In this document: positions 34,433 through 55,684 of the stretch, piece by piece
Numbering within the stretch: position 1 is the first letter of the stretch
Layout: each line of letters starts with the position of its first letter
Assembly (NCBI GenBank): GCA_902386135.1
Contig: CABMIB010000034.1
Location: 1-56,794 of the forward strand
DNA from: an uncultured archaeon
GTDB lineage: Archaea; Halobacteriota; Methanosarcinia; Methanosarcinales; Methanoperedenaceae
Direction: 5' to 3'
Length of the DNA: 56,794 nucleotides
Notes under the pieces: model-generated
Told to the model about the DNA's origin: nothing
Database searches by the model: none
The model's input: the letters and a program-made list of their open reading frames with translations, nothing else
Position numbers and translations under genes: made by a program

Positions 34433-36004
34433 TTAAACCCCGATATCCATCTCCTCATCCGCCCTCACCGCAGGCTTCTCATGCTTCTCCTCATACTCCC
34501 TCTGCGCGTTCCACAGCGCGGGCGCATCCTTGCTCCTGCCTTTGGAATCGCTCGTGAGCCTCTTCCGTATCCTGACCAGTGTGGGGGTATTTATCGCCAC
34601 ACCTGAGATCACAGCCTGACCTTTGGCAAGCGATGGAAGCTCTGAAATTAAATCCCTGCTTGCAGATTCAATGCTTTGGGCAATCTGCTGCTGGTCTGTG
34701 GGATTGATTATCCGCATCGTTATCTGTGTCATGCACTGCGAGAGCGAATCCGCATCCAGCTTGCTGGGGCGCTGTGAGACCATGCATATGCCAATGCCGA
34801 ACTTCCTGCCCTCAGAGAGAATCGTTTTCAGGATACTCTTTGATTTTGCCTCGCCGCTGTGCGGTGCGAACCTATGCGCTTCCTCGATGACCACGAATAC
34901 AGAGTAAGGGAGGTATTTATTAGCATGGGATTCGTTATTATACCTTTTATTCTCAGTGCCCATCTTTGCATCGAACAGCTGCCGCAGCATGACAGATGCA
35001 ATAAGCTGCTGGTATGTCTCCTCGATTCCCGAGACGTCCATGATAGTAAGCTGCCCGACCTTGAAATAATCAGTAAGTGGAAAGGTCTGGGAATCATCAA
35101 ATATCTGAGCATTCAGCTTTTCGAACCTCCAGAGGATACCTTCTATCGTAGGCTCATTGTTTGAGTCTCGCAGCGCTTCGATCCCGAGCTTCAGTTCATG
35201 GCGCGTGGACGGTTTCTTGTGGTCATTCCAGAGGTTATGATACGCTGCCCGAAAGAGCGTCTTCATCTTATCAGACATTGTCCCGTCATCCATTATACTG
35301 ATGAAATCGCTTACCAGAAGGTCTCCTACCCCGATTTTTATACGTTCGGGCTTAACTATCTTGACCTTCGGGTGGTAAGAGGGTGTAACAAATTCAGGCT
35401 GGTTCGATATCTTGTCAAGCGTTGAATATTCACCGTGAGGGTCAAAAATGAGAACCGGAGCCATGTTATAGGGCTTCAGAAGTTCCTCGACAAGTACGCC
35501 TACAGTGTACGATTTCCCGGCTCCCGTGGATGCAATGACCGAAACGTGCTGGCTCACCATATCCCGCACCGACAGGACTATGTCAGCCCCAGTCCCAAGA
35601 ACAGTACCGATAGTTGCAGAACCCCTTTCACCCTGTCTTATCTTGCTTATTTCTTTAAGTATATCCTGACCTGCATATTCTATTCTTACGCCGTTTTCAG
35701 GGTTTGTTCTGGGATTTATGAACTCACCCATAACAGCATCAAAATAGCCCACTACATCGGCTGAATAAGAATAATATTTAAAATCCGTGGGGTCAAGACC
35801 GTAAAATCCAGATACCTCATCAGCCTCGATGTTCATATCCATAAGGAACTCCTGCGGATACCGGTTCAGCGGCTCACAGCATTTCACCCGGCAGAGGACT
35901 TTTTTTCCGGCATCGGTATAGCTGATGAACATACCTCTTGGAAGACGCTCGCACGAGATAAAAGTAAAACCATCCTCACTTGAGGAGCTGACAGTTCCTA
36001 TCAT
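34433..36004 (-). CDS. herA: HerA DNA translocase/helicase
   Basis: HerA is a hexameric FtsK-like ATPase that moves along DNA while NurA trims ends. An N-terminal HAS-barrel-like region (about 1-110) precedes the ATPase, with Walker A ASTGAGKSYT, Walker B VFVVIEEAHRFAP and LSEGRKFGIGICMVSQRPSKLD. The best start is ATG 36004, which overlaps the previous stop (ATGA). The open frame extends upstream to 36052, inside the preceding gene. It is the last gene of the mre11-rad50-nurA operon. Confidence 0.93.
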   Translation of the reverse strand: MIGTVSSSSEDGFTFISCERLPRGMFISYTDAGKKVLCRVKCCEPLNRYPQEFLMDMNIEADEVSGFYGLDPTDFKYYSYSADVVGYFDAVMGEFINPRTNPENGVRIEYAGQDILKEISKIRQGERGSATIGTVLGTGADIVLSVRDMVSQHVSVIASTGAGKSYTVGVLVEELLKPYNMAPVLIFDPHGEYSTLDKISNQPEFVTPSYHPKVKIVKPERIKIGVGDLLVSDFISIMDDGTMSDKMKTLFRAAYHNLWNDHKKPSTRHELKLGIEALRDSNNEPTIEGILWRFEKLNAQIFDDSQTFPLTDYFKVGQLTIMDVSGIEETYQQLIASVMLRQLFDAKMGTENKRYNNESHANKYLPYSVFVVIEEAHRFAPHSGEAKSKSILKTILSEGRKFGIGICMVSQRPSKLDADSLSQCMTQITMRIINPTDQQQIAQSIESASRDLISELPSLAKGQAVISGVAINTPTLVRIRKRLTSDSKGRSKDAPALWNAQREYEEKHEKPAVRADEEMDIGV

Positions 36005-36519
36005 GTGCCCCTCTCGATGTATTTCCTGATAAGTTTCAGCATGGCACAGCACTCAGGATAGTTTTTCTCGACCTGTTCCACGATGCCAAGAAGAACAGCC
36101 CTGTCAAGGGCATCACGGTTAGCCTGGAAATAAGCGATGCTGGGCTTGCCATTCAGTGTATGGAAATCCCTTACCTCATCCTGAGCTAACGGAAGAAGCT
36201 CATCACCGATATCGGGCGGCGAATCTATGCTGTACCTCACAGTTCCATTGCTAATCGTCCCAAGCCCGTGAACAGTATAATAGCTGTTCTTGAAATCCTC
36301 ATTAAAAGGAGCATACTTGGGCTGCATTTGCGGCTCAATATACGGAATAAGCTCTTCGCGTACTGTATGCGTGATGTTCTTTATCACGCCCACTATGATC
36401 CCGCTGTCTTTTTTTATTTTCACCAGCCTGCCGATACATTCCTTCTGTGTGTCTGGCGGTATCTTCACCACGTAGGTACTCGCATCCTCTACCCTGATCA
36501 CATCTCCTAATACCATCAT
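36001..36519 (-). CDS. HAS-barrel-like protein between nurA and herA
   Basis: A 172-residue protein with a beta-rich first half (GDVIRVEDASTYVVKI, then IGRLVKIKKDSGIIVGVI). This resembles the HerA/ATP-synthase (HAS) barrel, and a helical second half with ANRDALDRAVLLGIVEQV follows. It overlaps herA by four bases and follows nurA by 29, so it belongs to the same operon. It may be an accessory subunit of the HerA-NurA machine; this is inferred from position and fold resemblance only. Confidence 0.6.
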   Translation of the reverse strand: MMVLGDVIRVEDASTYVVKIPPDTQKECIGRLVKIKKDSGIIVGVIKNITHTVREELIPYIEPQMQPKYAPFNEDFKNSYYTVHGLGTISNGTVRYSIDSPPDIGDELLPLAQDEVRDFHTLNGKPSIAYFQANRDALDRAVLLGIVEQVEKNYPECCAMLKLIRKYIERGT

Positions 36520-36548
36520 ATCCTCCTTTTTTCATTATTTCCTGTTTG

Positions 36549-37700
36549 TCATTTCCAGTTCATCATTTTATGAAAATGTTTAGCGCTTTTGTGTATTTTG
36601 ATGCCGTGTATCTTGCAGAAATTGTCAAGCATACCATAAAAAAGTGTATGCTCGCTCATCCGTATCAGCGCAGTGTCGTGCGCCCGCATCAGGATGTCGG
36701 GATAATTGCCGCGTATCACGCACTCCGCCCGGATGATATCTGCTATCTTATCGACCTGGCCTGCCTGATACGCCCATGAGGGAAATTCCACGCGCACAGG
36801 AAGCCCGTTGCTCATCCTCATATAAAAGAACGCTATACTGTTCCTGAACCTGCCGTAGTAGTCAAGAACAGCCCTTGAATCCCCGCCCCTCCTGTCATCC
36901 CGGTCGCAGAGAAAAGCTGCCGTCCGCTCTCCCCATAAAATATTAGAGAAAAGATGCGTGTCTGAGAGCTTGCTCTTTTTTAATTTGAAAATATGATGCA
37001 TCATCAGGGTAACGTCCCGGGGCATCGTTGTATCGATGTAACCGATAACAGGGTTTTTAGTGCTTTCCGATGCCTCAAGCAGCCTGATTATCGCGTTGAT
37101 ATAGATCTCACGGATATTAGTATTGAGTACGTTTATGTGCGACAGGGTTAGCGCGCCATCAAGCAGAACATAGAGCTTTTCATGCTCTTTCATCAACTGC
37201 ACCATGCTATCACATTCCGCAGCGAAGCGCCGCGCGTCCACGTACTCGCTCCCGAAGGAATACACGCTTGCAGCCTCGAACTCATCAGGCGTGATGATAG
37301 CGGCATGAGTATCCTGCCTATAATCCGAATCGCTTGTATGCCTGTTAAATATGCGCGAGGTCTGTATGACAGCTAAGGGTATTTCGTAATTTTTATCCGA
37401 ATATATCTGGCTGCCGTCCACTGCCCCGACAGCAACGCCGGAAAGCACCGAATCAATCCATTCAAGCGCCTCGTGCCTGTTTTTCCAGTTAAATTGAAAA
37501 GGCCGGATGAGCTTCCCTGGCTCAAGAAGCTTCGCGCCGCTGTAAGAAGGCAGCGTTTCGTTCATTTTAAGATCAATGACATTTAATTTCCCAAGCTCTT
37601 CCCTGTACTCCTTCGTAAGCTCGGATCGCTCAACATCATACGACTTTATTGCTTCAAGCTTTGAGTCAAACTGCAAAGATATGTTTTTCAGGTCGAGCAT
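36549..37700 (-). CDS. nurA: NurA nuclease
   Basis: The 383-residue protein matches NurA, a 5'-3' end-processing nuclease that acts with HerA. The first metal-site motif is GAVDGSQIY. A second Asp lies in YVLLDGALT, and a C-terminal conserved region includes FPSWAYQAG. The start codon shares its A with the rad50 stop (37700), so translation is coupled. The product prepares 3' overhangs for recombination with Mre11-Rad50. Confidence 0.9.
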   Translation of the reverse strand: MLDLKNISLQFDSKLEAIKSYDVERSELTKEYREELGKLNVIDLKMNETLPSYSGAKLLEPGKLIRPFQFNWKNRHEALEWIDSVLSGVAVGAVDGSQIYSDKNYEIPLAVIQTSRIFNRHTSDSDYRQDTHAAIITPDEFEAASVYSFGSEYVDARRFAAECDSMVQLMKEHEKLYVLLDGALTLSHINVLNTNIREIYINAIIRLLEASESTKNPVIGYIDTTMPRDVTLMMHHIFKLKKSKLSDTHLFSNILWGERTAAFLCDRDDRRGGDSRAVLDYYGRFRNSIAFFYMRMSNGLPVRVEFPSWAYQAGQVDKIADIIRAECVIRGNYPDILMRAHDTALIRMSEHTLFYGMLDNFCKIHGIKIHKSAKHFHKMMNWK

Positions 37701-40423
37701 TATTGTACCCTGCTTTCACCATCGATTTTCTGTATCCTCACAACATTTGCGTATTTCTCATTGAATGTGTCGTCATGGGATATAACGAATACCTGTTTGA
37801 ACCCGCGGATCTTCATGATCTCCTGCGAGAGTTTTTCCCGCCTCAACTCGTCCATATTCTGCGTGGGTTCATCAAGGAATATGAAATCACAGCTTGAAAG
37901 TGCTTTCAGGAGTGCAAGGCGCACAGCGAGCGCTGCACCCATGCGTTCTCCACCGCTCAGTTGCCTGAAGGATTTTACCTCTCCGCCCGATTCGACCTCG
38001 ATATCATAATCATTTTGCCACTTAAGCCCGCAGGTATAGTCATCCATTATCTCCGAGTAAATGTTGCCTGCTTCCTGGCTTATCTCCCCGATAAATTCAT
38101 TGGCGATGTACTCAGATGAGTTCTTGATGGTATCGCGGATAAAATTAGAGAACGAGAGGAACTGTTTTTCATTTTCAAGCTTTTTCTCTGTCTCTTTTAT
38201 TTTTGAAAGCTCGGATTCCATAGCTGCGATTTCGCGCGCGAGTTTTTCCATATTTTTAGTTTTCCCTTTCACGGCTTCTGCTTTACCGCTCGCGATTTTT
38301 CCAATATCTTCAAGACGGGAGATCGTATCATTAAGAATTGACTCGTCAAATTCAGATAATAGTGTCTCATGCTTTTGGATATACCCGCCCAGAGTAGAGT
38401 TCACCGATGTTATGCTTCCTTCAAGTTTCCTGCATTCCTGCGTATATTCACTCACTTTCAAAGCAAGCGGAAGTGCCTGCAAATATTTATTATGCTCCTG
38501 CTCAAGCTTCGTTATCTTATCCTGCAGGAGGGCGATCTTTTCATCAAGCCCCTCGAATATCAAAGATTTAGAGGTTAGCACGTCCCTCTCACGCCGGCTC
38601 ATATCAATAGAGCCGGGAACGTGTTCAAGGGTTTTTAGCTCCTTACGGTTTTTTTCTATGAGCCCGTTCAGTTTCTCTACCTCTTTATCCGGTGAATTAA
38701 GCGCTTTGAGCTCTGCTTTCTTAGAGTTAAGGCTTATCGAAAACGTCTTCCGCTCTTCCTCGCTTCCTGTCAGAGTCCCGATTTTCAGTGCAGGATAAGA
38801 TAATGCCAGCTTTCCAAGTTTTGCTTTGCACGAGCTGACCTCGTTTGAAAAAACTCTGTAAGCGTCAATATCCTTTTTCTTGGATTCAATAATCGCAGCC
38901 ATATCATCGCACTTTTTCCTGGGATTATTAAGTTTTGAGAGTCCATTTGATACTAGGTCCAGTTGTTTCTGTATTTCGTTCAGCATTCCGGTGTGTGTAT
39001 TTATTTCACCTTCGAAATACCCGGCAAAGTCATTGACCGAAGTGCATTTGATCCCGTTAAAAACGGGACATAAACCATGTGTTCCTGCAAGTTTCATGCT
39101 GCTTCGAGTCTTTTCGAGCATGGATTTTACCGATGCCTGGCGCTGGAGCAGCGCCTGCTGTTTGTTTTCGAATTCTGTTTGCTGCCCGATCAGTGGACTA
39201 AGAGAAGCGATGCCCTTTTCAAGCTGCTGGATATCCGACTGGAGCAAATTGGCGCGCTGTTCCTTTTCAACCGCCTGTTTCAGTTCAAAACCAAGATGAA
39301 TGAGTGAGTCCAGGAGAGATAAGAGATTCTGGATCTCATCCTCCTGGGCTTTTTGTTTCTCCACAGCCGGGATTAACTTTTTCTTTAGCTCTTCAAGTTC
39401 CTTATTCTCTGCAGAAAGTTTAGATATGCGCTCAAGCTTATCCGACAGAGCCCTTATGTCAGAATCGAGTCTGGCTATATCTTCTTTTAACCTGTCCCTC
39501 TTCGCACGGTCGCCGTTCAATTTTTTAAGAGCAGCGCTCTCTTTTTTAAATAATTCCTCAGCAGGAAGCAACTCATTTACGATTTTCTGGGCAGACTCCG
39601 CGCCCAGGAGGTCTGAGCTTGCCCTTTTAAGCTGTTTAGTGATACCCTCAAGACGGATGCGCTCACTGGCTATCTGCGAAGAAAGGGCATCCAGTTGGGC
39701 TTTTTTGGCTGTCAGTTCTTCTTTTTTCCTGGTTAAAGATGTGATTTTTATATTTATTTCCTTGATCTCGGCTTTCAGTTCATCGCTCTCTTTTTGCAGG
39801 TCTTCTTTTTCTTTTTTCAATTCAGGATACTTCTCTGTGCGGGTTCGCAGGGGTATCAGCTCCCTGTCCATTGAATCTATCGTCTTTTCAATAGCCGCCG
39901 TGACCTCCCGCAGGTTAGTATATGCTTCTTTATATTCCTCCACCCTCAGGATATTATCAAAGATTTTCTTTCTCGGCTCGGGGTTCAGGAGGAACGCTGT
40001 CGTGAACGTACCCTGGGGAACCCCGACTGCATTCTCAAAAATAGAGGGCATATCCCCCGGCGACCTGACATTATACAGGAGATTGGATGCTATCCAGTCC
40101 ATCACGTCTTTTTTTCCTTTGATCTCGCTGACAGGCGTTTTAATATAATACTCGCTTCCACTCAATTTCCTGGTTATCGTATATTCTATTTCATCCCTGC
40201 CTTCTACGGTTATGGCGACATAGCCTGATTTTTCGCCGTGCCTTCGGAAGTCGTCGATCTTTTTATATGGAGGAAAATCGAACAACACATAGCCGATAGC
40301 TTCAAGGATAGTGCTTTTCCCGTGCCCGTTCTGTCCGCAGATGCCGTTGATGCCTTCCATGAATTCAATCGTCCCATGGCTGTAGGATTTTACGTTCTTT
40401 AATTCAACCGATTTTATCAGCAT
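37700..40423 (-). CDS. rad50: Rad50 ATPase of the Mre11-Rad50 complex
   Basis: This 907-residue SMC-type ATPase has Walker A GQNGHGKST, Q-loop region VGVPQGTF, two long coiled coils, signature LSGGERMGAALAVRLAL and Walker B FIFLDEPTQNMDE. The complex tethers and processes double-strand breaks. At the coiled-coil apex (about residues 450-460) the usual CxxC zinc hook is replaced by Cys-x7-Cys (LCPVFNGIKC), a non-standard hook. The ATG directly follows the mre11 stop. The downstream gene nurA overlaps by one base. Confidence 0.94.
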   Translation of the reverse strand: MLIKSVELKNVKSYSHGTIEFMEGINGICGQNGHGKSTILEAIGYVLFDFPPYKKIDDFRRHGEKSGYVAITVEGRDEIEYTITRKLSGSEYYIKTPVSEIKGKKDVMDWIASNLLYNVRSPGDMPSIFENAVGVPQGTFTTAFLLNPEPRKKIFDNILRVEEYKEAYTNLREVTAAIEKTIDSMDRELIPLRTRTEKYPELKKEKEDLQKESDELKAEIKEINIKITSLTRKKEELTAKKAQLDALSSQIASERIRLEGITKQLKRASSDLLGAESAQKIVNELLPAEELFKKESAALKKLNGDRAKRDRLKEDIARLDSDIRALSDKLERISKLSAENKELEELKKKLIPAVEKQKAQEDEIQNLLSLLDSLIHLGFELKQAVEKEQRANLLQSDIQQLEKGIASLSPLIGQQTEFENKQQALLQRQASVKSMLEKTRSSMKLAGTHGLCPVFNGIKCTSVNDFAGYFEGEINTHTGMLNEIQKQLDLVSNGLSKLNNPRKKCDDMAAIIESKKKDIDAYRVFSNEVSSCKAKLGKLALSYPALKIGTLTGSEEERKTFSISLNSKKAELKALNSPDKEVEKLNGLIEKNRKELKTLEHVPGSIDMSRRERDVLTSKSLIFEGLDEKIALLQDKITKLEQEHNKYLQALPLALKVSEYTQECRKLEGSITSVNSTLGGYIQKHETLLSEFDESILNDTISRLEDIGKIASGKAEAVKGKTKNMEKLAREIAAMESELSKIKETEKKLENEKQFLSFSNFIRDTIKNSSEYIANEFIGEISQEAGNIYSEIMDDYTCGLKWQNDYDIEVESGGEVKSFRQLSGGERMGAALAVRLALLKALSSCDFIFLDEPTQNMDELRREKLSQEIMKIRGFKQVFVISHDDTFNEKYANVVRIQKIDGESRVQ

Positions 40424-41728
40424 TCAGGCATCCCCTATGCGTGAAAGAAGAGTCTTCTGTGCCGGCCCGGGAGCTTTTTTACCTGTATTATCTTCATTGT
40501 CCGGCAGCGAGCTTTTTATTTTTTCAAAACACCATCTCAACTCCTTCTGGATCGCGCTCTCTTCAACCCCTGCAGCAGCCATCCTTTTTGCTTCGATCAT
40601 CGTCTTCACAATCTCTTCCGCATTGTCCCTGTACCTGCCGTCAAGTTTTACCCTGTCTGAGAAAACGCGGTACTCTATCTGCTCGCGCGTCAGCCCGCGC
40701 ACATCGCCCTCGTTGAGCGTGTATTGCGAATTGCTTTTCAGTATCTTTATCTCCGACCAGAGAGGCTTGAACTGTTCCGACAGCATTTCCTTTATGCGCT
40801 CCAGGTTTACATCGGATTTTGGAAAATTCATGTTTCCATAGAGCAAAAGTTCGACCAAGGGGTCTGATGGGGTTGACGGTTCCCTGCCCAGTCTTGAGCT
40901 TATATTCGAATACAGTTCATCCGGTGTGGCGATGCTGCTTATATCCAGTTTGATGCGCCTTACAGGGCGGGTTACCGGGGTTATAAGTTTTGTGCCGCCG
41001 TCCTTTACATGATAGAAACCTTTCAGTAAACCATATTCATTCATGGCGATCATTTCAACGCTGCCCGGATTGAATATCCAGCCGTCAGCTTCGTAATTCA
41101 TATGATAGTGCCCGAGCGCAAGATAATTCACGACTTCTTTCAGGGGCAAAAGAGAGTTGTAATGTATCTCTCCAGGAGCCTCCTGCCTCATCTGCCCTGC
41201 CATGCCGAAGTGCATCATCAGTATCGTGTATTTTTCACCCCGGGCGGCGGTTATTTTTTTTATCTCCTCTGCTATCTGGGGAATTACAGAAACAGTGCTT
41301 GAGCCGATGTATTTCACGCCGAAGATGCGGACGTTGTCCAGTTCGATAAAATCACCCATGAGTTTGACGCCGTCGGCCTCTGCCTCTTTCAGCTTTATGA
41401 CTTTAAGCAGACCCTGGGAATTCAGTATCTCAAGCCAGCTTTTGCCGTCCTGGTGAAAGGCGAGGTCGTGGTTCCCCTCGATGGCATAGACCGCAGTGGC
41501 AGGGCTTTTCTTTTTGAGCTCTGAAAGCACGCGATACGCCTGCTCATATGTGGGCGCGTTTATGTTCCGCTTGTGAAATAAGTCGCCTGAGATAAGGATG
41601 AATTCCACCCTGTGGTCAATGGCGTGCCTGATGACAGAATGAAAAGCGCGGGCGTAGTCCCGGAAGCGCTCGGGAAGCCCGTATTGAGCATAACCCAGGT
41701 GAAAATCACTCGCATGGATGAAGTTCAT
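40424..41728 (-). CDS. mre11: Mre11 nuclease
   Basis: This 434-residue calcineurin-like phosphoesterase has the five Mre11 motifs: ASDFHLG, SGDLFH, EGNHD, MMHFG and LGHYHMN. A C-terminal region follows for DNA and Rad50 binding. It is a 3'-5' exonuclease and endonuclease at DNA breaks. It is the first gene of a five-gene operon with rad50, nurA, the HAS-like gene and herA. A minus-strand TATA-like 'aatttataac' lies about 25 bases upstream of the ATG. Confidence 0.94.
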   Translation of the reverse strand: MNFIHASDFHLGYAQYGLPERFRDYARAFHSVIRHAIDHRVEFILISGDLFHKRNINAPTYEQAYRVLSELKKKSPATAVYAIEGNHDLAFHQDGKSWLEILNSQGLLKVIKLKEAEADGVKLMGDFIELDNVRIFGVKYIGSSTVSVIPQIAEEIKKITAARGEKYTILMMHFGMAGQMRQEAPGEIHYNSLLPLKEVVNYLALGHYHMNYEADGWIFNPGSVEMIAMNEYGLLKGFYHVKDGGTKLITPVTRPVRRIKLDISSIATPDELYSNISSRLGREPSTPSDPLVELLLYGNMNFPKSDVNLERIKEMLSEQFKPLWSEIKILKSNSQYTLNEGDVRGLTREQIEYRVFSDRVKLDGRYRDNAEEIVKTMIEAKRMAAAGVEESAIQKELRWCFEKIKSSLPDNEDNTGKKAPGPAQKTLLSRIGDA

Positions 41729-43257: not shown

Positions 43258-44331
43258 ATGAAATATAGTGTTTATGTCCTAAAATGCGAGCACGAAAAAT
43301 TTTACGTTGGATTTTCCACCAGAGAATTAGATAAATATTTTGAGATTATTAAGGATGGTAAAGGACCTAAATTTTCTAGAATACACAAACCATTGAATAT
43401 TATATCTATTGGTACCTTTGAGAGTATTGAAGAAGCAAAGAAAGAAAATGTTAAGGTTTATGAAATATTAGCAAATGTGCTTGGAAATGAAAATGTAGAA
43501 ATGGATGAAAGGCGTTATCATGAAGTAAAAGGTTGCTTCCCTTTAAATTCTCAAGAGTCAACAAGAATAGATATTTCAAATAATCAAAAATGCGTGGAAA
43601 GCAGCGATATATCAATGAATAAATCTCCATCAGAAAATATACTGCGAGGCGAGTATATAGCATACTGTTTGCTTTGTATCAAAAAGGCACGATATATCGG
43701 AATGACAAAAAACCTAACCAATACACTTAAATTGCATAAAGAAGGAAAAATATTATTTACAAAATGGTATACACCCATAAAAATTGAGCGCAAAAAATAT
43801 TGCAAAACTGAATTTGAGGCTAAACTTAAACAAACAGATTTTTTAGATGATATTCGTCTTAAATACGGCCCTGTAATTAGAATATACACCGAATTCATTG
43901 ACTCAAAACCTGATAAAAGAATTGTCTGGGAGCATATTATTCGTCCTAAATATGAGGAACTTTTCGAAAATACGCCATCTGGACCAAACATCAATTACTG
44001 GGTGTATATTTTAGAGTGTGAGGATTCAAAATATTATGTAGGATTTACATCAAATCTTAGAGAGAGATTTGAACGTCATGCTTCAGGGCCAGGAGGGTCA
44101 AATTATACATTTAAATATAAACCAGTGTATGTTCTTCATATAGAAGGGCATTATGATGAACTATCAGCAAAGAATGCTGAGAGGACTTGGACTCTTGATT
44201 TAAAAAAAATAAAAGGTAAATATAATGTTTCAGGTTATTTGGAAGATACTGGAAATAATGAGTTACCATTTTTTGATAACGAAATTTTAGACACGTGGGA
44301 GATCAAAAATCCTAAAGCGTGGGAACTCTAG
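43258..44331 (+). CDS. Triple GIY-YIG domain protein
   Basis: The 357-residue protein contains three successive GIY-YIG-like units. They begin YSVYVLKCEHEKFYVGFS (residue 3), YIAYCLLCIKKARYIGMT (about 130) and YWVYILECEDSKYYVGFT (about 246). The third is closest to active enzymes: it has LRERFERH with the catalytic-type Arg and a Glu in AKNAERTWTLDL. The first two lack a clear Arg-Glu pair and may be degenerate. GIY-YIG proteins cut DNA. The AT-rich composition and accessory setting suggest a foreign origin. Confidence 0.75.
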   Translation: MKYSVYVLKCEHEKFYVGFSTRELDKYFEIIKDGKGPKFSRIHKPLNIISIGTFESIEEAKKENVKVYEILANVLGNENVEMDERRYHEVKGCFPLNSQESTRIDISNNQKCVESSDISMNKSPSENILRGEYIAYCLLCIKKARYIGMTKNLTNTLKLHKEGKILFTKWYTPIKIERKKYCKTEFEAKLKQTDFLDDIRLKYGPVIRIYTEFIDSKPDKRIVWEHIIRPKYEELFENTPSGPNINYWVYILECEDSKYYVGFTSNLRERFERHASGPGGSNYTFKYKPVYVLHIEGHYDELSAKNAERTWTLDLKKIKGKYNVSGYLEDTGNNELPFFDNEILDTWEIKNPKAWEL

Positions 44332-50800: not shown

Positions 50801-51247
50801 GCTGACATTGCGGCAGGACCGAAAAACAGCGCGTACAAGACGCTGGGGACAATGATAGAGAAAATGGATGCGCAGTTAGCGCTTGCGCGGAAGATTAAGG
50901 CTGTTGACCCGCAGGATGTTGCAGAGAGAATAATTAACTCGCATTTCCTGCCTGACCTGATAGGGAACCTGCGCTCGTTCTCGAAGCAGAAGGTCAGGTG
51001 TACGAAATGCAATGCAAAGTACAGGCGCCCACCCCTGCGCGGAACTTGCCCGAAGTGCGGGGGGAATGTTGTGCTTACTGTGCATCAGGGCTCAGTGAGG
51101 AAGTATCTTGAGACGAGCCTGCGGATCGCGGATGAGTATAATGTGAGGCATTATACGAAGCAGAGGCTTGAGCTGCTGGAGCTTGAGATGAGTTCTTTGT
51201 TTGAGAGCGATAAGGTGAAGCAGAAGGGGCTGGCGGACTTTATGTGA
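47807..51247 (+). CDS. polC: DNA polymerase D large subunit DP2
   Basis: The 1146-residue catalytic subunit of the archaeal replicative polymerase [20 protein letters not shown] lies near residue 145. The catalytic acidic cluster is [15 protein letters not shown] (about residue 897). Zinc-binding motifs are seen at [15 protein letters not shown] and [16 protein letters not shown] in the middle and CTKCNAKY...CPKC near the C-terminus. No intein interrupts the gene. The small subunit DP1 is not in the window. A frameshifted copy of its last 240 or so bases lies at 55448-55684, on the far side of an AT-rich island. Confidence 0.96.
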
Positions 51248-51401
51248 TGATTATAGAATTTGGTTAAGCTCTGCGTGCATCCATGGAAAACGGAACACGG
51301 ATGACACGGATTGGACGGATTTACACGGATTTGTTATTATTTGTAAAGCAAAAGGGGCGCGCAAATTGTATAATTCAAGCCATTACATTTATTAATGAAT
51401 A
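51248..51401. repeat. Dispersed acggat repeat after DP2
   Basis: The segment 51282-51331 contains ggaacacggatgacacggat followed by ggacggatttacacggat. The same family occurs inverted at 54189-54228 and 54565-54602, direct at 54345-54362 and, shortened, inverted at 56416-56450. No gene lies in this gap. Confidence 0.6.
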
Positions 51402-52967
51402 TTAAAGCACGGCTACTTGGGAATATTTATATTTACTAAGTTTATTGAACTGTTCCTCAAATTTAGTGTAGAAGGCATCTATTTCTTTGGAATTTTCTTT
51501 GCACCACATCTTTGTCATGAAAATCCATAAAACATCATTGTCTTCACCCAAATTAGAAGACGCATAACTGAACCATTCATGATAATCTGACAAAGTTTTT
51601 GCATTTTCAAATGCTGTCTTTACTTCAATCAAAGGCCTCTCTATTTTTTCTACAACTGTTTCATAATTTGCAGTAATGTATTCCATAATTAATTTCTCGG
51701 GAGGTTTTTCTCCCGGAAATTTTATCAAATACTCCTCTTCCTTAATAGGGGAGTCACCATCTACGACCCCAATAATTTTTGATGATTTAATCTTGAGTGA
51801 TTTATTAATATCAATGTATTTTTTAATGTTTGCATCGCCTCCACAATTATTAATTATCAGTTGTTTTAACAAGTTTGAATTTTTTTGAGAAATTATTGTT
51901 CGAAATAAATGTAATGCTTTTTCATCTTCGACTAATACCTCTATTTTATTTTCTATATTTGCTCCTAAAGAATCTTTTGCTAACCCTTCTGAACAATTAT
52001 TTACGCAAGATATATTAGATTCGCTATCAATTTTTAGTAATATACGTGAATAATTATTTGTATGTTCTATCAGTGTAGGTGAATGGGTTGTTAAAATAAA
52101 TTGGACATTTTTTTTAAGGGAATATTCATGGATTAATTCAAGAATTTTTTTCTGGGCTTCTGAGTGAAGAAAATTCTCTAATTCTTCAATAATGACAATA
52201 CTATTTTCGGTTAAGCTATCGAGGCCCCATAAAAATTGATTAATATAGAATTCACCTGAACCCATGGTGTAAGAGTCATAAACTGTACCGTCTACAAGTT
52301 TTATACGATAATATTCCAAGTATGGCTTTTCTTGAATAAAATCTGGTTCAGGTGGTTCTAAATCGAAATCTGGTTCAGGCGGTTCTAAATCGAAATCTGG
52401 TTCAGATGGTTCTAAATCGAAACCGGGGTATGAAGGTTCTTGATCAATGATTCTCTCAGCCGAAATGATTTGTTTTCCAATAAGTTCTTTCATGATTGTA
52501 AGTAACTTACTAGGCAATGGTTTCGCATCATATTGCTTTAATGTCGCAAGATAGAACATCATATTTAAACCTGTGCTATTTTTATAATATGCGTAAAGTT
52601 TAGAATTGAAAGTCAAATCTATTAAGTTTGGTAAAGAAAAATCCTGCTTCACTATTTCTTGGTTCTCAACAATTAATTCATTATTTTTATGATTTAATAA
52701 TCTAATTTTATAATTTTTCACTCTAAATAATATACCAAACTCGTATTCTTTATTTTGAAGGTTATAGACCTGTTTTAATGCATTAATAAAGGTTGATTTA
52801 CCTATACCATTTTTCCCGGTAATAAGTGAAATTGGTGAATTAAATCTGAGAGTGGCATTCTTCCAATTAAAAATATTAATTAAGTGAATTTCTTTTAAAA
52901 AGTATTTTTTTTCATGCCATTTCTTTAGAGTCTTTCTCTGATAATCATCATATTCAGATTTTATCAT
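51402..52967 (-). CDS. AAA ATPase with OLD-like TOPRIM domain
   Basis: An ABC/AAA-type ATPase of about 521 residues: Walker A GKNGIGKST, signature-like MGSGEF, Walker B SIVIIEELENFLH and H-loop TTHSPTLIEH. A TOPRIM-like region follows (VLVEDEKALHLF; GVVDGDSP with the acidic pair), as in OLD-family nucleases. Between the two ATPase halves is a 9-residue tandem repeat (EPPEPDFDL, three copies; 27-base units at 52341-52427). ATG 52967 overlaps the DUF262 gene end by 14 bases; a TTG at 52979 also fits. The gene is much richer in A and T than DP2. A nucleic-acid-cutting defence role is inferred. Confidence 0.8.
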   Translation of the reverse strand: MIKSEYDDYQRKTLKKWHEKKYFLKEIHLINIFNWKNATLRFNSPISLITGKNGIGKSTFINALKQVYNLQNKEYEFGILFRVKNYKIRLLNHKNNELIVENQEIVKQDFSLPNLIDLTFNSKLYAYYKNSTGLNMMFYLATLKQYDAKPLPSKLLTIMKELIGKQIISAERIIDQEPSYPGFDLEPSEPDFDLEPPEPDFDLEPPEPDFIQEKPYLEYYRIKLVDGTVYDSYTMGSGEFYINQFLWGLDSLTENSIVIIEELENFLHSEAQKKILELIHEYSLKKNVQFILTTHSPTLIEHTNNYSRILLKIDSESNISCVNNCSEGLAKDSLGANIENKIEVLVEDEKALHLFRTIISQKNSNLLKQLIINNCGGDANIKKYIDINKSLKIKSSKIIGVVDGDSPIKEEEYLIKFPGEKPPEKLIMEYITANYETVVEKIERPLIEVKTAFENAKTLSDYHEWFSYASSNLGEDNDVLWIFMTKMWCKENSKEIDAFYTKFEEQFNKLSKYKYSQVAVL

Positions 52968-54018
52968 CGACTTCTCCAAATTTTCCTTTAATTAAGAATT
53001 CTTGATAAAAATCAATTAAAATTCTATGTCTACCTTTTAAAGAATGGGGATCGAGCCAACCTTCACTTAAAAGGGTTTCAAATTCAACATATTTATTATG
53101 AACACTCATATCATTTTCAAATCTGTATTCCTGATTTTTCCGCCAATCTTCAAATTTCTTTAAAAATTTAGATAATATCATTACATTAACATTATCTATA
53201 GTTTGAATATCTCTTAAAAACCAGTAATAACTCATCAAAGTAGACTTTGTTAATTTATGATTAGAATTTTGTAAAACGCTTTCTAATAATTTTAGGTTCT
53301 TTCTTAAATTAGCTTCAACTGCTTCATTAATAATTTTTTCGAAATACATTTTTTCCAAAGCTTTCGAATTAGGCTTATTATCAAGATTTCCTTTTTTTTC
53401 CAAGAAAAATATTTTATCTAAAACATCTTGGTAAGCCATTCTTAAATTTGGGAAGCCTAATGTTTCAATACAAAAGAGTTTCGGATAATTATTAATGATT
53501 TCCCTTAAAAAATTCTTAACCGGACCGTATATACAATTTCTTTTTTCTGAATCAGCAACAGTGACCCCCAGATTAAGCCTCAAAAATAATTCAGTGGCTT
53601 CATTCATTCTTACATCGGTGACCTGAAATATTCTAATTGTTGTAAATAGAAATTTGTTTTTTACACTTTCAGGAAATTGAGAGAATTTTTTTCCATGTAG
53701 TTCTTTAAAATCATCCATACCTGGTATGAATTTAGCGTTGAATGTGAATTTATCATTTAGAAAGTTATATATTGAAAATAAACGTTGTTTGCCATCCAGA
53801 ACTTCATAAACTTCCTTTCCCTCTATCTTAACCAGGTGGATAGGTGGAATATGCCAACCTCTCATAATAGAATCTATTAATTTTTGCTGTTTTTGCTGAT
53901 TCCATACTATATCTCTTTGAAAATCAGGCTGCAAATCGTATATTCCATTTTCAATTCTTCCAAAGATATTACCAATATCTTGATCTGTTGGTTGGACTAG
54001 CATTTGTGTCTCCTGCAA
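52954..54018 (-). CDS. DUF262 (ParB-like) protein
   Basis: The 354-residue protein has the DUF262 core: LQPDFQRDIVWNQQKQQKLIDSIMRGWHIPPI, then EVLDGKQRLFSIYNFL with the DGQQR-type motif, and LFLRLNLG. DUF262 proteins include the GmrS, BrxU and SspE restriction nucleases, which use this domain to bind and hydrolyse nucleotides. No HNH (DUF1524) domain follows, so cutting would need a partner; the overlapping AAA-TOPRIM gene is the obvious one. A TATA-like 'acatttatatac' and a 'gcaggaga' ribosome-binding site precede the ATG. Confidence 0.85.
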   Translation of the reverse strand: MQETQMLVQPTDQDIGNIFGRIENGIYDLQPDFQRDIVWNQQKQQKLIDSIMRGWHIPPIHLVKIEGKEVYEVLDGKQRLFSIYNFLNDKFTFNAKFIPGMDDFKELHGKKFSQFPESVKNKFLFTTIRIFQVTDVRMNEATELFLRLNLGVTVADSEKRNCIYGPVKNFLREIINNYPKLFCIETLGFPNLRMAYQDVLDKIFFLEKKGNLDNKPNSKALEKMYFEKIINEAVEANLRKNLKLLESVLQNSNHKLTKSTLMSYYWFLRDIQTIDNVNVMILSKFLKKFEDWRKNQEYRFENDMSVHNKYVEFETLLSEGWLDPHSLKGRHRILIDFYQEFLIKGKFGEVDDKI

Positions 54019-54805
54019 TAAATATATAGTTGTTGTATATAAATGTTCTCAGGTCTTTATGAAAATATATATTTGTGTTAAAGAGATGTGCGAAAAATGG
54101 GTACAATCATGATGACACCCTCCCAATTTTGTCCTGAAAAATAAATAGATTTAAACGAGGAGAGCACAGATTTGCACATTAATAAAAATCCGTGCGTATC
54201 CATCGTATCCGTGTCATCCGTGTTCCGTTCACCCGGTTGTTTGCTATTTTAAAAATCGCGCCCCAGATTTCAGGTAAAAGCCAGCATTCTTGAAGCAGCT
54301 ATGGGTTTTGTGGTTAAGAACAGAAACAGATGCAAATGAATTCGAACACGGATGACACGGATCGGGTAGCTGTATTTCGTTCGCCTGGCTGTTGAATGCT
54401 TTAGAATACGTGTCTCCCTTCCCAGCGTGCCCCATATCCTGTTTACGGGGTTGAAAGTTATAGTGCCAATACTGTTTTTTAATAGGCGCGCCGGACTTTA
54501 ATCGGGATATTTAAATAATATCACTATAGAACTCTTCCTTATGGATTTGCATGGCTGAAACGAATCCGTGCATATCCATTGTATCTGTATCATCCGTGTT
54601 CCATTCGCCTAGCTGTTTGCTTTTTTACTAACTGCGCCCCAGATTTCAGGTAAAAGGCGGCATTCTTGAAGATGGAATTTCTGTCGGACTTTATGTGAAT
54701 ATCATGCCAGAAATTTATAAATCCAACCGAATTAATCCCCGGTACTTTTGCAAAAACTCAAGAACCGCAATAATTATATATTCTATTGCAACACATGTGT
54801 TACAT
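54019..54805. repeat. Repeat-rich gap between DUF262 and VapBC
   Basis: No intact gene was seen. Two copies of gcgccccagatttcaggtaa run on into the segment ending cattcttgaag (about 54258-54297 and 54637-54671). 'atccgtgcgtatccatcgta' (54189) recurs as 'atccgtgcatatccattgta' (54566). An 18-base copy of the DP2 end lies at 54681-54698 (ctgtcggactttatgtga against ctggcggactttatgtga). The end of the gap carries the vapB promoter. Confidence 0.65.
54771..54801 (+). promoter_or_regulatory. vapBC promoter and palindromic operator
   Basis: TATA-like 'attatatatt' (54772-54781) is followed by the perfect palindrome aacacatgtgtt (54790-54801). This lies where transcription should start and just before the ATG at 54806. 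It fits autoregulation by the VapB ribbon-helix-helix protein. Confidence 0.55.
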
Positions 54806-55447: not shown

Positions 55448-55684
55448 GGTGCAAATACAGGCGTCTGCCCCTGCACGGGACTTGCCCGAAGTGCGGGGGG
55501 GAATGTTGTGCTTATTGTGCATGAGGGTTCGGTGAGGAAGTATCTTGAGACGAGCCTGCGGATTGCGGATGAGTATAATGTGAGGCATTATACGAAGCAG
55601 AGGCTTGAGCTGCTGGAGCTTGAGATGAGCTCACTGTTCGAGAGCGATAAGGTGAAGCAGAAGGGGCTGGCGGACTTTATGTGA
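55448..55684 (+). pseudogene. Duplicate of the DP2 3' end
   Basis: From gtgcaaatacaggcg to the stop tga this matches the last 240 or so bases of DP2 (51010-51247), with most differences silent or scattered. One extra G in the run after gaagtgc (about 55493-55501) breaks the frame. The zinc-ribbon end and the LADFM terminus can still be read. No promoter or start is present. It is either the displaced original gene end or a duplicated one. Confidence 0.88.

Follow-up and report, generated by a model that had tools for sequence, protein, structure and literature searches.

A conserved overlapping DUF262 and ATPase-TOPRIM gene pair inserted behind polD DP2 in an uncultured archaeon: a candidate two-component defence system

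Introduction

Two overlapping genes on the reverse strand of contig CABMIB010000034.1, which belongs to an uncultured archaeon of the Methanoperedenaceae (56,794 nucleotides, analyzed as a whole and referred to here as the window), raise the question of whether they form a defence system and, if so, whether that system is already known. One gene encodes a DUF262 protein and the other an ATPase with a TOPRIM domain, and an initial annotation of the window had proposed that sensing and cutting could be divided between the two products. The evidence described below favors, with moderate confidence, a conserved two-component system directed against viruses or other mobile elements, in which a DUF262 sensor would license an ATPase-TOPRIM nuclease.

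Organization and Sequence Features of the Gene Pair

Both open reading frames were confirmed on the reverse strand where the initial annotation had placed them. The DUF262 gene (52954–54003) encodes a GmrSD_N, ParB/Srx-like protein of 349 amino acids, the proposed sensor, and the ATPase gene (51402–52967) encodes an OLD/HEC-04-type ABC ATPase of 521 amino acids with a C-terminal TOPRIM domain, the proposed effector. The likely starts of both genes are internal ATGs with ribosome-binding context, located at position 54003 for the DUF262 gene, with a GGAG just 5′ of it, and at position 52967 for the ATPase gene. As had been annotated, the two genes are translated in overlap; the overlap comprises 14 nucleotides (52954–52967), which makes translational coupling likely, and overlaps of 4–31 nucleotides are found in six homologous pairs.

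The DUF262 protein was identified as GmrSD_N in Pfam (E-value, 8e-21), matches NsnA in PADLOC (1.7e-30) and contains the sequence motif QR...DGKQR. Its AlphaFold2 model has a predicted local distance difference test (pLDDT) score of 89, and a fold search of the PDB retrieved BrxU as the nearest solved structure (3.6e-5), followed by ParB/Noc. No HNH/DUF1524 domain was found by Pfam in the DUF262 protein or in the ATPase. The initial annotation had described the former as lacking its usual HNH domain; the absence is real, but it is not unusual, as Menshen NsnA and other DUF262 proteins also lack this domain.

The ATPase belongs to AAA_21 according to Pfam (1e-17) and contains the Walker A, signature, Walker B and H-loop motifs. 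In PADLOC, the whole protein matches HEC-04 best (3.6e-34); it also matches the retron I-B ATPase-Toprim (7e-23), AriA (2.7e-18), NsnB (3e-18) and GajA (4e-15). The best matches of its model in Foldseek are the Thermus (Ts) OLD nuclease (6p74; 4e-9) and GajA (2e-8), with alignments that span most of the chain. The match to an OLD-like TOPRIM is below the Pfam threshold (E-value, 0.026). The C-terminal region (residues 321–521, encoded at 51402–52007), which includes C-terminal helices, is nevertheless called TOPRIM because the C-terminal half, searched by itself, matches its counterpart in HEC-04, the TOPRIM half, at 1.9e-14, because the model shows the beta-alpha order of a TOPRIM, in which E347 and D403-x-D405 each follow a different strand, and because these three acidic residues are invariant. 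The only other PADLOC match of the TOPRIM half alone was the retron I-B ATPase-Toprim (7.5e-5). In the model, the TOPRIM and the C-terminal helices mostly have pLDDT scores of 78–89, compared with 65 overall.

The conservation of the acidic TOPRIM residues, on which the annotation had made its proposal depend, was found throughout: E347, D403 and D405, together with H463 (E, DxD, H), are invariant in 11 homologues, four of them solo relatives, and E424 is near-invariant. Residues G51, N53, G54, G56, K57, G238, E239, E262, E264, H295 and S296 are invariant in all seven paired ATPases, as are E347, D403, D405, H463 and W488 in the C-terminal part. The description of an OLD-like ATPase with a TOPRIM domain therefore stands; the NTPase and TOPRIM residues of the pair are intact, and nuclease activity is predicted from them.

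Conservation of the Pair in Archaea and Bacteria

The matches listed from a large DUF262 scan of genome contigs were mostly generic DUF262 proteins, and the counts of pairs given here are to be read as “at least”. Among the matches listed, the paired subfamily comprises seven DUF262 genes, from two archaea, one gammaproteobacterium and four viral or proviral contigs. An overlapping ATPase-TOPRIM gene directly follows the DUF262 gene in all seven, which constitutes a two-gene unit, and the initial proposal, which hinged on homologues being found together, is upheld on this point as well. Among the 215 other DUF262 genes listed that have enough downstream sequence, a related ATPase gene is located next door in three, each time in a three-gene arrangement of the Menshen type, which PADLOC confirmed for two of them. 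In a single-sequence ranking, the DUF262 proteins of the subfamily scored at least 148 bits, versus at most 94 bits for all others.

The host genus is probably Methanoperedens-like, in an order that apparently has Methanosarcina-like members. The same pair is present in G106, which belongs to a different archaeal family within this order (61% and 51% identity; ATGA overlap). On viral contigs, a wide DUF262 alignment (A3) identified four close relatives (1e-55 to 3e-42), followed by a gap to 4e-25, and all four precede an overlapping ATPase-TOPRIM gene; earlier scans of these contigs, built on a single protein or on two sequences, had required exact peptide patterns that were too strict to match anything. 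When the ATPase alone was used as the query on the class to which Pseudomonas belongs (321 genomes), five relatives were identified, one of them with a DUF262 partner (L208). In the archaeal order, two of 186 genomes have the ATPase, both with the pair. The plasmid search with the ATPase retrieved distant solo relatives only, and the phage search gave no match.

In a tree of 30 sequences, the paired DUF262 proteins form one clade with support of 99/99. The ATPase tree shows the same splits and branching order among the paired members, and two changes between the paired and solo states suffice to explain it. The two proteins have been inherited together, and their identity matrices are correlated (r = 0.93, exact Mantel p = 0.002). 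The annotation had suggested a search for conserved pairs, and the overlapping arrangement proved to be kept across archaea and bacteria, to which the pair is common; it is rare, patchily distributed and horizontally spread.

Insertion at the 3′ End of polD DP2 and Defence Context

The two genes are the only ones in a discrete insertion of 3,451 bp (51248–54698) that is missing in G004, a relative of the same genus in which the end of DP2 runs directly into VapBC. The insertion is bounded by 14-bp direct repeats with the sequence CGGACTTTATGTGA; the left copy (51234–51247) comprises the last 14 nucleotides of polD DP2, including its stop codon, and the second copy (54685–54698) lies at the right end. 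The guanine-plus-cytosine content of the insert is 32% (29% in its genes) versus 51% in DP2; the AT-rich island reported initially is real and is more exactly described as this insertion. No integrase gene was found inside the 3,451-bp insert. The arms of an inverted repeat (80%; 51289–51347 and 54171–54229), which belong to a dispersed genomic repeat, bracket the two genes together.

In other species, the position after DP2 is occupied by a type I restriction-modification system (G023 and G012), by a full Lamassu system (G007; LmuA, 4e-63; LmuB, 3e-137; LmuC, 2e-18), by an OLD-like ATPase (G006) or, in several cases, by housekeeping genes; in the locus L305, from a species of the same genus, a complete Lamassu (LmuA, LmuB and LmuC) is located right behind polD DP2. 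Insertions have thus recurred at the 3′ end of DP2 with a defence system that varies between species, which suggests an integration hotspot situated in a protein gene. Homologous pairs elsewhere adjoin a separate, full Gabija system (L041; GajA, 2e-218; GajB, 4e-179), an AbiH gene (6e-42) and a second NsnA-like DUF262 gene (L042), or an integrase and a primase (G106). The variable site behind DP2 and the Gabija and AbiH neighbors form a strongly defence-like context, in agreement with the defence role that had been proposed.

Relationship to Known Systems and Alternative Explanations

The comparison with Gabija, PARIS and BrxU/SspE that the annotation had recommended was performed, and the pair matches none of them as such: Gabija, PARIS and GmrSD were each rejected as its identity on a defining part (no GajB, no AriB and no HNH, respectively). 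The type IV restriction proteins GmrSD, BrxU and SspE resemble the pair in their DUF262 NTPase module, as judged by Pfam, motif and fold, but carry a DUF1524/HNH nuclease, whereas in the pair a TOPRIM protein would supply the nuclease in trans. Gabija (GajAB) likewise contains an OLD-type ATPase with a TOPRIM, and GajA is among the best fold matches; however, GajB is a UvrD-like helicase, and no helicase gene is present in the insert. The retron I-B effector is also an ATPase-TOPRIM fusion, but no reverse transcriptase gene was seen beside the pair. The conserved acidic E and DxD are shared with OLD-class TOPRIM nucleases in general. The HEC-04/IbfA proteins belong to the same ATPase-TOPRIM family, with a full-length match in the homologues (weaker in the distant paired member L208) and the same E, DxD and H residues. 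This family is experimentally antiphage, and IbfA acts as a single gene and causes abortive infection (PMC12111858); in the present case, by contrast, the ATPase is paired with a DUF262 gene of its own subfamily at all seven loci listed. None of the PADLOC 2.0 models seen in this analysis fits the pair as such, and a literature search found no description of a DUF262 and ATPase-TOPRIM pair, yielding only a review (PMC10952713); the names NsnA and NsnB turned up in unrelated uses only. The pair is probably uncatalogued, its novelty being provisional and judged against PADLOC 2.0.

Among known systems, the leading candidate was Menshen, suggested initially by that review, which describes it as pairing DUF262 with a predicted OLD nuclease (PMC10952713). 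A divergent Menshen (NsnA-NsnB) whose third gene had been lost or fused would account for the matches to NsnA (1.7e-30) and NsnB (3e-18) and for the shared order, in which an ABC ATPase gene comes after the DUF262 gene and is translationally coupled to it. However, the genuine Menshen loci identified here (L176 of C. muellerianum and the Bacteroidia genomes G900 and G877) score far better, at 8e-93 to 7e-112 for NsnA, 2e-61 to 7e-107 for NsnB and 1e-57 to 5e-93 for NsnC, and the ATPase of the pair itself scores HEC-04 (3.6e-34) above NsnB. The Menshen ATPase, of approximately 400 amino acids, lacks the TOPRIM that is fused to the ATPase of the pair, the NsnA of L176 falls in another DUF262 clade in the tree of 30 sequences, and the insert contains no third gene corresponding to NsnC. 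The NsnC profile (PDLC03879) gave no match in G000 or G106, a result that is weak alone because the controls were silent too, and NsnC was rejected as an equivalent of the TOPRIM domain, to which it has no profile similarity (prob 0.1). A Menshen identity is, on these grounds, improbable.

PARIS (AriAB), in which an ATPase and a TOPRIM nuclease also work together, provides a different logic, akin to that of a toxin-antitoxin system: the DUF262 protein would restrain the TOPRIM enzyme and free it when a viral protein attacks. The resemblance of the ATPase to AriA (2.7e-18) and the gene overlap, which suits a guarded toxin, are in keeping with such restraint. In PARIS, however, the ATPase is the guard, the TOPRIM resides on a separate protein, AriB (DUF4435), and DUF262 is absent, whereas here the ATPase and the TOPRIM are fused; moreover, close members of the family are solo and hence need no DUF262 restraint. 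We regard this logic as having a minor chance of being correct, and much the same applies to its further suggestion, in line with the abortive infection caused by IbfA, that tRNA or nucleic acid of the host may be what is cut. A role in DNA repair or chromosome maintenance might be considered because OLD, RecF and Rad50-like ATPases have repair functions as well and because both polD and a HerA-NurA-Rad50-Mre11-like cluster are close to the insert. The very patchy distribution of the pair, its presence in an AT-rich insert at a site that is variable and rich in defence genes, the location of four of the seven listed pairs on viral or proviral contigs and the Gabija and AbiH neighbors make such a role very unlikely.

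Proposed Mechanism and Significance

In the two-component defence system favored here, the ParB-like DUF262 protein would bind NTP and detect nucleic acid that is invading or modified, or else some other sign of infection. This sensor would partner physically with, and license, an OLD-family ATPase bearing its own TOPRIM nuclease, and the TOPRIM would then cut nucleic acid of the invader, the host or both, halting infection. That the DUF262 protein senses and the ATPase-TOPRIM protein cuts is the most likely division of roles, and we infer the licensing of a nuclease in trans by analogy with OLD, Gabija and IbfA, which are ATPase-TOPRIM proteins known as nucleases or as antiphage factors (PMC12111858), and with the DUF262 proteins BrxU and SspE, which are NTP-binding sensors gating a nuclease (PMC10952713).

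Several observations weigh against this proposal. The ATPase-TOPRIM family is also present without DUF262 (L315, which is IbfA, L209, L210 and L200), and because IbfA functions without it, sensing need not fall to DUF262. The pairs known here number only seven, two of which are closely related to others, and when the two closest pairs are omitted the matrix correlation falls to r = 0.32, so that co-inheritance is weakly reflected in it. In addition, the model of the ATPase is of modest quality (pLDDT, 65) and its Foldseek TM-scores are low (0.2–0.3), the fold matches resting on local similarity; the low scores probably reflect poor placement of the domains in the model.

The broader proposition, that the pair represents a distinct, previously undescribed antiviral system present in both archaea and bacteria, with an OLD-class ATPase-TOPRIM serving in trans as the nuclease of a GmrSD-type DUF262 sensor, is advanced tentatively; equally tentative is the view that such a system couples a sensor resembling those of type IV restriction to an effector of the Gabija/OLD kind. 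If correct, it would extend the DUF262 and OLD/TOPRIM defence families by an architecture of two genes, would explain how nuclease-less DUF262 proteins can act and would provide a minimal pair whose sensing and cutting could be told apart with single-gene and active-site tests. In this genus, the 3′ end of archaeal polD DP2 is a candidate hotspot for defence-gene insertion and a practical site to mine for further systems.

Other Features of the Locus

The ATPase gene contains in-frame 27-nucleotide tandem repeats (52324–52431, reverse strand), encoding EPPEPDFDL units that expand a loop of the protein and are missing from the closest homologue, that of G106. In the G106 ATPase-TOPRIM protein (L008:10951-12627), the C-terminal helical module is tandemly duplicated.

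The sequence ATCCGTGTCATCCGTGTT (51293–51311, 54207–54225 and 54344–54362) is dispersed, occurring at 18 places in the genome with at most one mismatch, and the reversed control gave none; two inverted copies flank the pair.

Two neighbors that had been cited initially as support for a defence role do not provide it and were rejected as parts of the system. VapBC represents a second, separate insertion; G004 has it but lacks the pair. The PD-(D/E)XK/VRR-NUC-like gene is an ancestral neighbor of DP2, since it directly follows DP2 in G024 and G018. The 3′ end of DP2 (51017–51248) is duplicated 3′ of VapBC (55452–55684; approximately 232 nucleotides, 95% over 190 nucleotides), a feature shared with G004.

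The HerA-NurA-Rad50-Mre11-like gene cluster (34433–41728), recognized by sequence appearance only, lies 10 kb upstream. Within a separate AT-rich stretch, the gene at 43258–44331 encodes a protein of 357 amino acids that matches GIY-YIG three times (Pfam, 2.5e-21).
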